In this document: positions 2,066-40,098 of the stretch, piece by piece | Position numbering within the stretch: position 1 is the first letter of the stretch | Layout: each line of letters begins with the position of its first letter | Source: a virus | Length of the DNA: 49,134 bases | Virus record (IMG/VR): IMGVR_UViG_3300021085_002896 | Location: 1 to 49,134 of that record | Reading direction: 5' to 3' (one strand) | Notes under the pieces: generated by a model | What the model saw: only the letters and a program-made list of their open reading frames with translations | What the model was told of the DNA's origin: nothing | Databases searched by the model: none | Position numbers and translations under genes: made by a program

Positions 2066-3892
2066 ATGAGCGATTACGTAGGAGATAATATGTGGATTCC
2101 GAAAGGAGACAAAAACGATCCTGGTCAAAAGCTAGTATGGTCAACTAAGAACGTTAATGACCTTTTAGTAGCATTAGACAAAGGATATCGTCCACAAGTT
2201 TCTATGCCATTTTATGAAGGTAAGCAATTCTTACGTAAAGGTAATATTGTATTTGAATATACTGAAGAAGAAATTGCAGAGTTGGCTAAATGCGCCAATG
2301 ACATTGTTTATTTTGCAGAAAAATATGCAGTAGTAATGACAGATGAAGGTATTCAACAAGTAAAACTTAGAGAATATCAAAAAGAATTATTGCACGATTT
2401 TCAAAATGAAAGATTTAATATTGTTCTTGCTTCTAGGCAAATGGGTAAAACCGTAACAGCTTCTATCTTTAACGCATGGTATTTAACCTTTAATTATGAC
2501 AAGACAACCTTGTTATTAGCTAATAAATCTGACTCAACAAAGGAAATTATAGATAAAGCAAAGGTGGTTATTGAAAACCTTCCTTTCTTTATGAAACCGG
2601 GTATTATCAAGTATGATGTAATGAATGTCCGTTCGGATAATGGATGTCGTTTAGTAGGTCAATCGACTACTGCAAAATCAGGTATTGGTTTTACAATTCA
2701 TAATTTATACCTTGATGAGTTTGCTCACGTTCATCCAACAATAGTAAATTCATTTTATGAAAACGTATATCCAACACTCTCAGCTTCGAAAGTATCAAGA
2801 ATTAACATCACTTCAACTCCAAACGGTTTTAATAAGTTCTATGAAATATACGCAGCTGCCGAAAGAGGAGATAACGAATATAACGCTACGAGAATCGATT
2901 GGTGGCAACACCCAGACAGAGACGATGAATGGTATAAGAGAGAACTTGGTAACCTTGGTTCTGAAGAAGCATTCAATAGACAATATGGAAATGAATTCGT
3001 AAGCTCTTCAAATCTATTATTAAGCCCAATGGTTATGAAAACTATGAGAAAAAATTCACATGAGTTTATTTGGCACGATTTAGAAGATTTTGAAAACATA
3101 CAAATAGATACAAAAGGAGTTTTAGGATTTCATAAAGATTTTGATCCTGAAGGAGCAAAAGAATCTAATAGATTTTATTTGTTTTCAGTAGACATTGCAG
3201 AAGGCAATGGGGGTGATTACTCGGTAATTAATGTTTTCGAAGTAGAACCAATGGAAGATAAGCACATTATTGATGCAGTGACACCGGGTGCAATGTATGA
3301 CTTTTTTAGATTGAATCAAGTTGCAGTCTTTAGATCTAATGAACATGTTATAGAAGATTTTGCAAAGGTTCTATATACATTAGCTGTTGAGATATTTAAT
3401 CCTGAAAATGTTAAGATGATTATAGAATTCAATACATACGGTTCTATCTTATTAAAATATTTACAAACAGTATATCCTTCAAGAAATGAATTTGAAGACG
3501 AAATGGTATTAAGGTTTAAACATAGACATGATTCAAGAGCCTTAAAACCAGGTATAAAATTAAAAGCAGATAACAAATCAGTGTTTTGCCAAAATTTTAA
3601 AAAATTAATTGAAAATAATAGAATAAAAATAAATGACACAGAAACTGTAAATGAAGCAAGTCTTTTCGGTAGTCTTAAAAATGGAAGCTATGGTGCTCAA
3701 ATGGGTAATGATGATATCATTATGACAGGAATCACTGCCACTGAATTTTTTAACACTACAGATTATGCAGATTACATCGAAGAATTGCTAGATTTTATAG
3801 ATCCTGAAAAGTATAAATTAATGGAAACTACTCTATATCAACAAAACGATTCAGCCGGAGATATGCAGTATGATATTTATGATCTTATATAG
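2066..3892 (+). CDS. Terminase large subunit, T4 gp17-like packaging ATPase/nuclease
   Basis: 608 residues, close to T4 gp17 (610). The N-terminal ATPase carries Walker A SRQMGKT (residues 123-129, K128) and Walker B LYLDEFAH (D217, E218). The C-terminal RNase H-fold nuclease has the acidic cluster VDIAEGNGGDYS (D376, D384) and a third acidic motif GNDDIIM (D549/D550). It pumps DNA into the prohead and cuts the concatemer. Near-adjacent to the small subunit and followed by the sheath gene as in T4. All expected catalytic residues are present. Confidence 0.97.
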   Translation: MSDYVGDNMWIPKGDKNDPGQKLVWSTKNVNDLLVALDKGYRPQVSMPFYEGKQFLRKGNIVFEYTEEEIAELAKCANDIVYFAEKYAVVMTDEGIQQVKLREYQKELLHDFQNERFNIVLASRQMGKTVTASIFNAWYLTFNYDKTTLLLANKSDSTKEIIDKAKVVIENLPFFMKPGIIKYDVMNVRSDNGCRLVGQSTTAKSGIGFTIHNLYLDEFAHVHPTIVNSFYENVYPTLSASKVSRINITSTPNGFNKFYEIYAAAERGDNEYNATRIDWWQHPDRDDEWYKRELGNLGSEEAFNRQYGNEFVSSSNLLLSPMVMKTMRKNSHEFIWHDLEDFENIQIDTKGVLGFHKDFDPEGAKESNRFYLFSVDIAEGNGGDYSVINVFEVEPMEDKHIIDAVTPGAMYDFFRLNQVAVFRSNEHVIEDFAKVLYTLAVEIFNPENVKMIIEFNTYGSILLKYLQTVYPSRNEFEDEMVLRFKHRHDSRALKPGIKLKADNKSVFCQNFKKLIENNRIKINDTETVNEASLFGSLKNGSYGAQMGNDDIIMTGITATEFFNTTDYADYIEELLDFIDPEKYKLMETTLYQQNDSAGDMQYDIYDLI

Positions 3893-3954: not shown

Positions 3955-6618
3955 ATGGCACTAAGTCCTCAATTATTACAATTCAAGAGTTCAGGCGTTT
4001 ACAGATTGGAATTTGATAAATCCCAAACTGCTAATATTGACGTTTCTACTCTTAGGCTGGTTGTTGGTCACTCAAGAAAGGGACCTTATAATACACCAGT
4101 ATTAATCGAAAACGTTGAAGCATTCATTCAAGTATATGGAAACATCGACAAGTCGTTAGAGAAAAAAGGAATGTTCTTCCACAGATCAGCTAAGGCTGCT
4201 CTTTCAAGAGGACCTATCCTAGCTCTTAACCTTGCTCATTTTGGAGAAAATGATTTAGCTTCAGCTGCACAAATTTCAACAAATGGATCATATAAAACTG
4301 ATCCCTTAATGGAAAGACCAGCTGGAAACACATGGGTTGAAGGTGATGTAAAAGTCGCTTATGTTGCTCCGGCAATTACTAATACTCTTACACTTGCATC
4401 TCTAACGGTAGCGAGTGGTATATCAGGACAGGGTGTAGAGATCGTTGGAGAAGATTTTACTGGATCTATTTCAACTAACGATTACTTATTACAATCAGAT
4501 GGAACTGTTGCACAAATAACTGGAGTGTCATTCTCTAGTGGAAATACTATGATAGGTATCGCACCTAGTAGTGATGTATTAGATGCATCTTACATTGGAG
4601 CAACTACATTTGATATTTACAATGCAGGAACTGAAGAACAATTATATACAGAAGCAGAATATTTAGCAGACTTTACTATTGCAACATATCCTGAATTAGG
4701 TCACCAAACTGGAGACTATGCTTATGCTAATTTCTTTGACACGGATAAATTCATGATTCCTTCTGACGAAAAAGTATTACAAACACTAGGACAGGATTCT
4801 AATCAAGTTTTAAACTTTGTAAATATTAAACAAACCCCAATCACAGTTTTCACAAGAAAAGCACAAGATACTGCTGGCTTTGATGTTACTGCAAGAGAAT
4901 GGTATGGAGAAGGAAATGTTCCAGCATATTTAGATAATAAAGATTTAATGTCAGATTATATGATTGACGTATTTGTATTCAAAGGTAAATTTGATGCTGC
5001 GGCAATGGACACTGATCCAGTTTATGGATATTACTTTGACAATAAAGGTTTAAGAAAAGAGCTAATAGAACAATTTGCAAACTTAAGACAAGTTGAAATG
5101 ATAGGTTCTTATACAGGTTCAATGCTTCCAGGTTTTAAAGACTTAGAAGGAAGAAACGTATATATCGAAACAATGATTAACGCTGAAGCAAGAAGAACAG
5201 GTTTATTCTGTGCAATTGCTGAAGATTTAGTAACTGACGAATCTGGAGATACTCCAATCGATTTAGTTGGTCACACATTTGACGAAGCCGCTCAAGATCA
5301 AGTAGTATTATCTTACGACATTGCAAATAGAACAATATTATTCCCTGGGTCGGATTTAACATACTCTGCTGATGGAACTAATGCAATATTTACATACACT
5401 GGTGCACTATCTACATTTAATCCTGAAGTTAAAAAAGGAAATTATATCAGAACAGGTGAAAGATTAGCTCTAGTTGAGCAGGTTTCTGTTTCTAAAAACG
5501 AAAGCGAACAAATAGTATGGACTATTAAATTATCAGAAGCGGCTCCTTTAGTTGCCCCTACTGCATTTGTTGAATCTTTAGAAGATGCAGCAGTTTCATA
5601 TACTCCATTCGTATTAAATGGCGCAGATATTGAAGCAGAAACTATTACTTCATGTTTACAGGCTATTTCATTAGGAACAGGATTGGCAACTGGTTTAGTA
5701 GATAAAGATGCAATTGACTTTAGATATATTGTTGATACATTTGGATCTTACGATTTAAATGGATTACAAAATAAAATTCAATTATCTCAATTAGCAAAAG
5801 AAAGACAAAACGCAGCAGCTATATTAAATGCACCAATGGTAAAAGACTTTAAAGAATCTACGGATCCTTCATTTAAAGATCAATTTGGCTCATTTAAAAC
5901 TTCATACATTAAAGATGGAGGTAACTTAGATCAAAATCCAACATCACTATATACATTACCGAGTATCGCAGATGGTGCAAACTTTGCATTCTACTATGGT
6001 CCTGGTCTTATTGTAAGAGAAAATGGAAAAGATTTAATCGTTCCACCAGCTGCTTATGTATCTAATAACTATATTGATAAATACACAGACGCTTTACCAT
6101 GGTCAATTGTCGCTGGTCCTAGAAGAGGTGTTGTTGCTGGAACTAACGTTGCAGGAGCTGAATATTCTTTTGACAAATCAGATAGAGACATTTTAGAGCC
6201 ATTTGGTTATAACCCAATTGTATTCCAAAGAGGAGTTGGTTTAACTATCTTAGGAAATAAAACTGCACAGCAATCTATTAAATCATCACTATCTTCAGCT
6301 CATGTTAGAGAAGTGTTAATTTACATTCAAGATGCAATGGCAGATATCCTTAAGGATTACGTATTCGAATTTAACAATGCACAAACTAGATTAGAAATCA
6401 AAACTCTAGCAGATTCATTAATGGAATCAGTTAGACAAGATGGTGGTGTATATGATTTCAAAAACGTAATGGATCAATCAAATAACACAGGTGAGGTAAT
6501 TGATAACAACATCGGTATCATAGATACATTTGTTGAGCCAGTTAAAGGTTTAGAAATAGTTGTACACAGAACGACGATTTTAAATACTGGTGAAATTTCA
6601 ACAGGAAACTTTAGTTAA
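3955..6618 (+). CDS. Tail sheath protein, T4 gp18-like
   Basis: 887 residues (T4 gp18 is 659), the contractile sheath subunit. The N-terminus (QFKSSGVYRLEFD) and C-terminal domain (PFGYNPIVFQRGVGLTILGN, then AHVREVLIYIQDAM) match the conserved sheath core: the C-terminal β-α fold carries the linker strands, and the middle third (residues ~120-520) is a variable exposed insertion with Ig-like β composition, which explains the extra length. Followed by the tube gene 36 nt downstream, as in other contractile phages. Expected to be a high-abundance virion protein. Confidence 0.93.
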   Translation: MALSPQLLQFKSSGVYRLEFDKSQTANIDVSTLRLVVGHSRKGPYNTPVLIENVEAFIQVYGNIDKSLEKKGMFFHRSAKAALSRGPILALNLAHFGENDLASAAQISTNGSYKTDPLMERPAGNTWVEGDVKVAYVAPAITNTLTLASLTVASGISGQGVEIVGEDFTGSISTNDYLLQSDGTVAQITGVSFSSGNTMIGIAPSSDVLDASYIGATTFDIYNAGTEEQLYTEAEYLADFTIATYPELGHQTGDYAYANFFDTDKFMIPSDEKVLQTLGQDSNQVLNFVNIKQTPITVFTRKAQDTAGFDVTAREWYGEGNVPAYLDNKDLMSDYMIDVFVFKGKFDAAAMDTDPVYGYYFDNKGLRKELIEQFANLRQVEMIGSYTGSMLPGFKDLEGRNVYIETMINAEARRTGLFCAIAEDLVTDESGDTPIDLVGHTFDEAAQDQVVLSYDIANRTILFPGSDLTYSADGTNAIFTYTGALSTFNPEVKKGNYIRTGERLALVEQVSVSKNESEQIVWTIKLSEAAPLVAPTAFVESLEDAAVSYTPFVLNGADIEAETITSCLQAISLGTGLATGLVDKDAIDFRYIVDTFGSYDLNGLQNKIQLSQLAKERQNAAAILNAPMVKDFKESTDPSFKDQFGSFKTSYIKDGGNLDQNPTSLYTLPSIADGANFAFYYGPGLIVRENGKDLIVPPAAYVSNNYIDKYTDALPWSIVAGPRRGVVAGTNVAGAEYSFDKSDRDILEPFGYNPIVFQRGVGLTILGNKTAQQSIKSSLSSAHVREVLIYIQDAMADILKDYVFEFNNAQTRLEIKTLADSLMESVRQDGGVYDFKNVMDQSNNTGEVIDNNIGIIDTFVEPVKGLEIVVHRTTILNTGEISTGNFS

Positions 6619-27590: not shown

Positions 27591-27704
27591 AGAAAAGCAA
27601 GAGATAAAGGTAAACTCCATATACACTATGGTCCGGCCGAAACAGCGTATCGAATTCTAACAAGGAGACTGACGAGTCTCGCGCTTAAGGGTAGCTTCTT
27701 TTCT
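27591..27704 (+). ncRNA. Structured RNA within tRNA array
   Basis: No convincing ORF. Outer arms AGAAAAG (27591-27597) / CTTTTCT (27698-27704), hairpin CCATA/TATGG around 27617-27631, hairpin GAGACT (27665-27670) / AGTCTC (27675-27680) with loop GACG, and AGCG (27644-27647) / CGCT (27682-27685). Placed between tRNA-Leu and tRNA-Arg like the stable RNAs C and D of the T4 tRNA cluster. Confidence 0.55.
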
Positions 27705-27738
27705 TTATAATTCACAAATCAAATTAAACTTAACGAAT

Positions 27739-28058: not shown

Positions 28059-28301
28059 ATGAAAGAATTTAACAAAGAAGAAATTAATAGAATAATAGAA
28101 ATGGCATGGGAAGACAGAACCCCGTTTAGTGCTATAGAATTCCAGTTCGGTATTAAAGAAAATGATGTTAGAAAAATAATGAGATCTAACATGAAAGAAT
28201 CTTCATTTAAGATGTGGAGAAAAAGGGTTAAGGGTAGAAAAACCAAACACACATATTCTCCTTCTGATTTTAGATTTAAATCAAGCAACCAAAAAAAGTA
28301 A
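28059..28301 (+). CDS. DUF2805/TIGR03643 family protein
   Basis: 80 residues from the ATG at 28059. INRIIEMAWEDRTPFSAIEF, GIKENDVRKIMRSNMK and SSFKMWRKRVKGRKTKH match the TIGR03643/DUF2805 family, with a helix-turn-helix-like N-terminus. A small chromosomal-type protein of unknown function, known from bacteria. Immediately after the tRNA array and probably transcribed with it. Confidence 0.88.
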   Translation: MKEFNKEEINRIIEMAWEDRTPFSAIEFQFGIKENDVRKIMRSNMKESSFKMWRKRVKGRKTKHTYSPSDFRFKSSNQKK

Positions 28302-38885: not shown

Positions 38886-38893
38886 CGATGGAA

Positions 38894-38956
38894 TTCCTAA
38901 CCTACTTAATTGAAAGGTATGGAAGCCAAAAAGGATCAGATCACCCTGATCCTTTT
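38894..38956 (+). ncRNA. Two-hairpin element between tRNAs
   Basis: TTCC..ACCT (38894-38903) pairs with AGGT..GGAA (38916-38925) with a small internal loop. It is followed by AAAAGGATCAG (38929-38939) / CTGATCCTTTT (38946-38956), a terminator-like stem 4 nt before tRNA-Gly. May be a processing or attenuation element. Confidence 0.45.
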
Positions 38957-38960
38957 AAAA

Positions 38961-39032
38961 GCGAGATTAGCTCAGCGGTAGAGCATCTGTTTACCAAGTA
39001 GAGGGTCGAGAGTTCGAATCTCTTATCTCGCT
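38961..39032 (+). tRNA. tRNA-Gly(ACC), unusual anticodon
   Basis: Acceptor GCGAGAT/ATCTCGC, discriminator T as in bacterial tRNA-Gly. Anticodon stem TCTGT/GTAGA and loop TTACCAA give anticodon ACC; the loop otherwise equals the common TTGCCAA of tRNA-Gly(GCC). A34 in glycine tRNAs is rare in bacteria. Confidence 0.85.
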
Positions 39033-39034
39033 CT

Positions 39035-39111
39035 ATGGAGATTAAGAAAATTATTGCAAGCAGACTGCTATCTAAGTCTGGGCCCCCGTCCAATAATTGA
39101 TTAATCTCCAT
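39035..39111 (+). ncRNA. Compact three-stem RNA in tRNA array
   Basis: P1 ATGGAGATTAA (39035-39045) / TTAATCTCCAT (39101-39111), 11 bp perfect. P2 AATTATTG (39049-39056) / CAATAATT (39091-39098), 8 bp. P3 CAGACT (39061-39066) / AGTCTG (39075-39080), 8-nt loop GCTATCTA. Junction strand GGCCCCCGTC (39081-39090) is unpaired. 7 nt before tRNA-Gln. No ORF. Confidence 0.7.
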
Positions 39112-39118
39112 TTTAAAT

Positions 39119-39838: not shown

Positions 39839-39871
39839 AAAGCCCAGGTTTCTAGGATCCTGGGCTTTTTT
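39839..39871 (+). terminator. Intrinsic terminator
   Basis: AAAGCCCAGG (39839-39848) / CCTGGGCTTT (39859-39868) plus T run. Confidence 0.9.
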
Positions 39872-39901: not shown

Positions 39902-39923
39902 TATTGACTGTCAGTCAAGATTT

Positions 39924-40015
39924 AGAGAGGTAGTGAAGCTGTCATTATTGTAATACCAAAAGCAAGGGTTCGTTTATTACATTGACAGGAACCCCGAAAG
40001 ACCCGAAGCCTCTCT
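39924..40015 (+). ncRNA. Pseudoknotted structured RNA
   Basis: P1 AGAGAGG (39924-39930) / CCTCTCT (40009-40015). P2 CTGTCA (39939-39944) / TGACAG (39983-39988). P3 TGTAATA (39949-39955) / TATTACA (39975-39981). Loop GGGTTC (39966-39971) pairs with GAACCC (39989-39994) outside P2, making a 6-bp H-type pseudoknot. No ORF. Five nt before tRNA-Glu, under a class 2 promoter. Confidence 0.72.
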
Positions 40016-40020
40016 TATTC

Positions 40021-40092
40021 GCTCCGTTCGTCTAACGGTTAGGACATTAGGTTTTCATCCTAAAAATAGGAGTTCGATTCTCCTACGGAGTA
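40021..40092 (+). tRNA. tRNA-Glu(UUC)
   Basis: Acceptor GCTCCGT/ACGGAGT, anticodon loop TTTTCAT (TTC), T-arm GGAGTTCGATTCTCC. Confidence 0.95.
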
Positions 40093-40098
40093 CAATTT

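Follow-up and report, generated by a model that had tools for sequence, protein, structure and literature searches.

What is the small RNA that appears to be encoded directly upstream of a tRNA-Glu gene in the viral record IMGVR_UViG_3300021085_002896, and what might it do for the phage? The stretch of DNA analysed (the window) comprises 49,134 nucleotides, positions 1 to 49,134 of that record, and its gene content and sequence style point to a phage of a Bacteroidota host. A structured RNA element of only 92 nt can be read on the plus strand at window 39924-40015, with four helices, every one perfectly paired. The outer stem P1 (7 bp) is formed by AGAGAGG (39924-39930) and CCTCTCT (40009-40015), and is followed by a conserved junction UAGUGAAG (39931-39938), which agrees with the consensus of the form A relatives described below. 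P2 (6 bp) pairs CTGTCA (39939-39944; family consensus CUGUUAGG) with TGACAG (39983-39988), P3 (7 bp) pairs TGTAATA (39949-39955) with TATTACA (39975-39981), and a 6-bp pseudoknot, which shows covariation in the family, joins GGGTTC (39966-39971) to GAACCC (39989-39994). The best-conserved block, CAGGAACCCCGAAAGACCCGAAG (39986-40008), recurs unchanged, or with few changes, in many relatives. A tRNA-Glu (UUC), called by ARAGORN and Rfam at 40021-40093 on the same strand, starts 6 nt 3' of the element. A sequence-only reading had proposed this compact RNA, with its three stems of 7, 6 and 7 bp, 6-bp pseudoknot and position upstream of tRNA-Glu, and all of these features are borne out.

The pseudoknot-free fold of the element has a free energy of -22.4 kcal/mol, compared with -16.7 kcal/mol for shuffled sequences, a modest difference (z -1.89); folding alone is therefore insufficient, and the case is made by comparison with homologues. 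BLAST of the window region recovers essentially only tRNA-Glu. The element matches no family in Rfam 15, none reaching the gathering threshold, and permissive Rfam scans of the window and of a consensus-like relative give only chance matches (best E 0.5-2.4, far below the cut-offs). Relatives were identified by a pattern search of viral contigs, using the pseudoknot strand GGGTTC, a gap and GAACCCCGAAA. The copies recovered resemble each other in flanking blocks far outside the pattern, and the use of a consensus-like copy (L012) as query led to copies in named phages. A wider pattern matches at least 120 stretches in viral contigs, whereas a nearly identical pattern has only 9 matches among bacterial and archaeal genomes totalling 257 billion bases, on which grounds the family looks essentially phage-borne. 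At least 124 distinct copies were parsed, forming 70 clusters at 80% identity and lying almost all in phage contigs, and the named carriers include KVP40, RaK2, E. coli phage mogra, Proteus phage Stubb, PM2 and Erwinia phage pEp_SNUABM_01. One phage locus (L242) contains two model matches on the minus strand, at 3505-3635 and 3955-4058, with about 450 nt between them. The knotted phage RNA family is apparently undescribed, no description of it being found in the open-licence literature, although subscription papers or preprints could contain one. The HRIMA motifs, which are almost exclusively metatranscriptomic (PMC10085705), were considered as the same family and judged to be different, being set apart by their description.

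In the family core, P3 closes an 18-nt loop of the form GAAnAA-(pseudoknot 5' strand)-nnn-AGUA; P2 and the block CAAACCAG, or its variant CAAACGAG, come next. They are followed by the 3' strand of the pseudoknot, by GAAAnACCC, whose GAAA can be replaced by a small extra stem, and lastly by P1 and GCUGUUAGG (or GCUCUUAGG). The GAA facing AGUA looks like a bulged-G (loop E) motif. Across the copies, covariation is seen in P2, P3 and the pseudoknot. In 42 sequences of the majority form (form B), standard pairs occupy 96.2% of pair cells, with 203 double changes, and the covariation score is 0.608, whereas shuffles give 0.115 and slid partners 0.05-0.11. The test of the pseudoknot is non-circular, as the selecting patterns did not include its 3' strand and copies were kept if the CTGTTAGG strand was present. 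Pairing extends to 6 of 6 positions in 34 of 40 copies and to 5 of 6 in the other six, with a mean of 5.85 pairs versus 4.36 with shuffled partners, and compensated variants include GGGACA/GTCCC, GGGGCA/TGCCCC, TGGATT/AATCCA and AAGCATT/AATGCTT. The modest stability of the window fold (z only -1.9) would suit a chance structure in an intergenic spacer, but this reading, which retains next to no probability, is refuted by homology (covariance-model E=1.1e-13 for the window element) and by the covariation score of 0.608 against its controls. The earlier suggestions that the fold is unlikely by chance, and that related phage tRNA arrays be searched for co-varying copies, have thus been followed to a positive result despite the weak thermodynamics, as the structure recurs with covariation.

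The core occurs in circularly permuted forms: form A is opened at P1 and includes the window copy, while form B is opened at the P2/P3 junction. Reading of L087, L154 and L174 suggests a third permutation, opened at the small extra stem. Some 35 columns vary in neither form A nor form B across phages of unrelated hosts, partly by selection, since the collecting patterns include conserved blocks. That a fixed core is circularly permuted suggests a function that lies in the fold itself. In L087, a T run follows the outer stem, and the motif seems to be built into an intrinsic terminator. In L131 and L168, a leader sequence ACCAAAACAAA is present on both sides of the motif, as would result from insertion of the motif into a gene leader or from its duplication together with one.

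The membership of the window copy was assessed with covariance model R1, built from 20 form A copies with the window and its closest relatives left out. This model matches window 39923-40020 (48.9 bits, E=1.1e-13), and P1, P2, P3 and the loop-to-junction pseudoknot are all present in the window copy. It also matches L053 (E=3.8e-18) and L056 (E=6.5e-17), both of which have the 3' block of the window copy, and L053 likewise adjoins a tRNA-Glu. In the window copy, the AGUA part of the GAA/AGUA loop signature and the internal loop UUAG/CAAA have diverged or been lost, and the internal loop has also diverged in L053 and L056, the nearest relatives of this copy. Despite the lost loop signatures, P2 and P3 of the window copy are perfectly paired with different sequences. 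Judged by its sequence, the window copy is a divergent member or subtype of the family.

The window RNA had also been credited with its own class 2 promoter, a claim that is not supported: a promoter consensus scan 5' of the element finds none, and comparison of the upstream sequence within the window reveals no convincing second copy. The region of the claimed promoter contains a perfect palindrome TTGACTGTCAGTCAA (39904-39918). Further upstream on the plus strand, a terminator-like hairpin read by eye, AAGCCCAGG...CCTGGGCTT (39840-39867), is followed by a T run and would end the upstream unit, separating the RNA from the upstream gene; the terminator scan allows loops of at most 8, and the hairpin therefore carries no score. 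A candidate second copy of the element at window 28206-28249 was rejected, being weak (E=0.14), apparently in coding sequence and devoid of the 3' half. Several other plus-strand features of the window were recorded. The spacer between tRNA-Gly and tRNA-Gln (39034-39116), with outer stem GGAGATTAA...TTAATCTCC, folds strongly (-27.0 kcal/mol, z -4.9) and is possibly another array RNA; it has no BLAST relative among the fetched loci. The spacer between tRNA-Ala and tRNA-Gly (38888-38958) contains an 11-bp hairpin AAAAGGATCAG...CTGATCCTTTT (z -5.0) that looks like a terminator. A long in-array spacer between tRNA-Leu and tRNA-Arg (27594-27720) contains GAGACTGACGAGTCTC and CCGAAAC, has no excess folding stability (z -0.1) and has no relative among the fetched loci. 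ARAGORN assigns the anticodon ACC, which is uncommon in bacteria and phages, to the tRNA-Gly at 38961-39033.

Across the family, 36 of the 124 copies have a tRNA gene no more than 30 nt away, on the same strand in every case and on the opposite strand in none, with gaps of 2-13 nt to a downstream tRNA and mostly less than 10 nt to an upstream one. As a control, 5% of random placements fall within 60 nt of a tRNA (first set of loci). The neighbouring tRNAs carry 23 different anticodons. For example, the mogra copy (100456-100536) lies between tRNA-Met and tRNA-Arg, the KVP40 copy is flanked by tRNA-His and tRNA-Cys, the RaK2 copy is 3' of an unannotated tRNA-Gly, the Erwinia phage pEp_SNUABM_01 copy has tRNA-Gly on one side and tRNA-Glu on the other, the PM2 copy is at the head of the tRNA cluster, and the Stubb copy is 5' of tRNA-Ile. 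Most of these named-phage copies have no annotated feature of their own in the record listings. The other 88 copies are more than 30 nt from any tRNA gene, 26 of them with a tRNA elsewhere in the fetched locus, giving 62 copies in all with a tRNA in the fetched locus. An ORF starts within 200 nt downstream of 65 of these 88 copies, and within 30 nt of many; a shared function or family was sought among the downstream ORFs and is absent, the ORFs being mutually unrelated. In L123, a sequence resembling the 5' part of a tRNA-Leu (GTGTGGCGGAATTGGTAGACGCGC) lies at 20-95 on the plus strand, immediately 5' of a form B copy. The motif may conceivably interrupt a tRNA-Leu here, but ARAGORN calls no such tRNA, and the locus has its start only a short way upstream.

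A hint to a function comes from at least four phage RNase P RNAs in which a copy of the motif stands where the specificity domain would be expected, found in L027 (12720-13005, minus strand, RNase P model E=1e-15), L130 (5365-5646, plus strand, E=1.5e-11), L151 (376-650, plus strand, E=1.7e-14) and L271 (1280-1560, minus strand, E=8e-7). These align with bacterial or archaeal RNase P models from end to end, including conserved regions I and V, with scores that are below the Rfam curated cut-offs. L270 probably encodes a fifth, near its low end on the minus strand, which aligns with conserved segments of the other four and is matched by none of the models. The RNase P RNAs with the motif are in or near tRNA arrays, and those of L027 and L130 directly adjoin a tRNA. 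It is well established that the specificity domain of known RNase P binds the tRNA elbow (for a review, PMC4919913). The sequence and pseudoknotted fold of the motif differ from those of the canonical J11/12-P12-J12/11 module of this domain (RF00010 and related), as far as the Rfam alignments show. No RNase P RNA is detectable with the models in most of the carriers searched, and the window record has no RF00010 match; the window copy is not within an RNase P RNA and, unlike the specificity domain, is free-standing. The idea that every carrier encodes an RNase P RNA is rejected as far as the model detects. A literature search found no description of RNase P RNAs from phages in which another module replaces the specificity domain, and such an RNA would be notable in itself.

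Our tentatively preferred reading, which is possible rather than probable, is that the family is a modular tRNA-binding RNA, the core of which recognises the general tRNA body (the elbow) and not one species. The core, comprising the P2 helix, the P3 hairpin with its conserved loop and the loop-to-junction pseudoknot, would grip the tRNA elbow. In some phages it would take the role of specificity domain in an RNase P RNA that the phage encodes, and elsewhere, including the window, as a free-standing piece of the tRNA-array transcript, which would engage the adjacent pre-tRNA or other tRNAs and help their folding, processing or protection. The place in RNase P RNA, the same-strand siting beside many tRNAs and the conservation across hosts argue for a universal partner, for which tRNA is the most economical candidate; the 23 anticodons among the neighbours fit a general rather than a tRNA-specific partner, and the roughly 35 invariant columns in phages of unrelated hosts likewise fit a universal one. 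Placement in tRNA arrays and at the specificity-domain position hints at tRNA binding, short of proof, and it is from these two contexts that we infer the binding, the elbow recognition and the effect on processing or protection. Against tRNA binding, the specificity-domain position might tolerate any stable hairpin, most copies (88 of 124) are more than 30 nt from a tRNA gene, the model detects no RNase P RNA in the window or in most of the carriers searched, and the conserved core is partly lost in the window copy. Known binders of the tRNA elbow are the T-box stem I, the ribosomal L1 stalk and the RNase P specificity domain. The broader proposition, that phages use an interchangeable module to grip tRNA, folded unlike these known elbow binders and occurring in several permuted forms both as an RNase P domain and as a free-standing array RNA, is conceivable and is advanced with greater reserve.

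Somewhat unlikely, though the strongest of the rivals, is the reading that the motif is a general-purpose element for RNA stability or processing: a compact knot would keep exonucleases out or hold adjacent RNAs apart, with no specific ligand. It would then be used where tRNAs begin and end, in 5' untranslated regions, and inside RNase P RNA as a rigid scaffold. The very diverse surroundings of the copies and the mutually unrelated downstream ORFs are consistent with such an element, as is the compact fold with its pseudoknot near both ends. However, the roughly 35 invariant positions exceed the needs of a mechanical block, and the tRNA-recognising position of the motif in RNase P RNA is left unexplained.

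A new class of self-cleaving ribozyme, processing tRNA-array and other phage transcripts, is improbable. The motif is small, pseudoknotted and circularly permuted, has no fixed gene association, and is tRNA-adjacent, as is reported for the HDV-like theta ribozymes of gut phages (PMC10879173), which are likewise small pseudoknotted RNAs. However, HDV-type models do not match the motif, which has one pseudoknot with a different helix order, and no known Rfam ribozyme model matches. Cleavage would also break the RNase P RNAs within which five copies lie, and a small ribozyme would be expected to have fewer invariant positions. More improbable still is a cis-regulatory sensor located in 5' untranslated regions, whether a riboswitch or a T-box-like sensor of tRNA, the array copies being relics: it would account for the ORF starts within 200 nt downstream of 65 of the 88 copies away from tRNAs, but these ORFs have no common family, a dense phage genome puts any intergenic element upstream of some gene, and T-box and riboswitch models all fail to match.

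Returning to tRNA arrays as the setting of the preferred tRNA-binding module, several known phage RNAs invite comparison. The position of the window RNA had been likened to that of the stable RNAs C and D of the T4 tRNA cluster. The likeness in position stands, as rnaC (species 1) and rnaD (species 2) are likewise small RNAs of unannotated function in a phage tRNA cluster, whereas homology does not, since neither R1 nor the second covariance model, R2, gives a match in NC_000866 69000-74500. The T5 stable RNAs (RNAI, RNAIII, RNAIV, RNA1, RNA2, RNA2H and RNA3) are likewise stable, of unassigned function and located between tRNA genes, and were rejected as homologues, as neither model is significant in AY543070 20000-45000. 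GOLLD RNA (RF02032) is also a structured RNA of phage tRNA arrays, and shares an array with the motif in L130, but it is about 400 nt or more in length with a different sequence, compared with about 90 nt for the motif.

The function of the stable RNAs in phage tRNA clusters, including T4 RNAs C and D and the T5 RNAs, is a decades-old puzzle. The family reported here supplies such array RNAs across many phage groups, with covariation in each helix of the core and with tractable carriers, such as mogra, a T4-like phage that grows on E. coli K-12. It also brings an extra clue to the puzzle of the array RNAs, in that phage RNase P RNAs can contain the same module.
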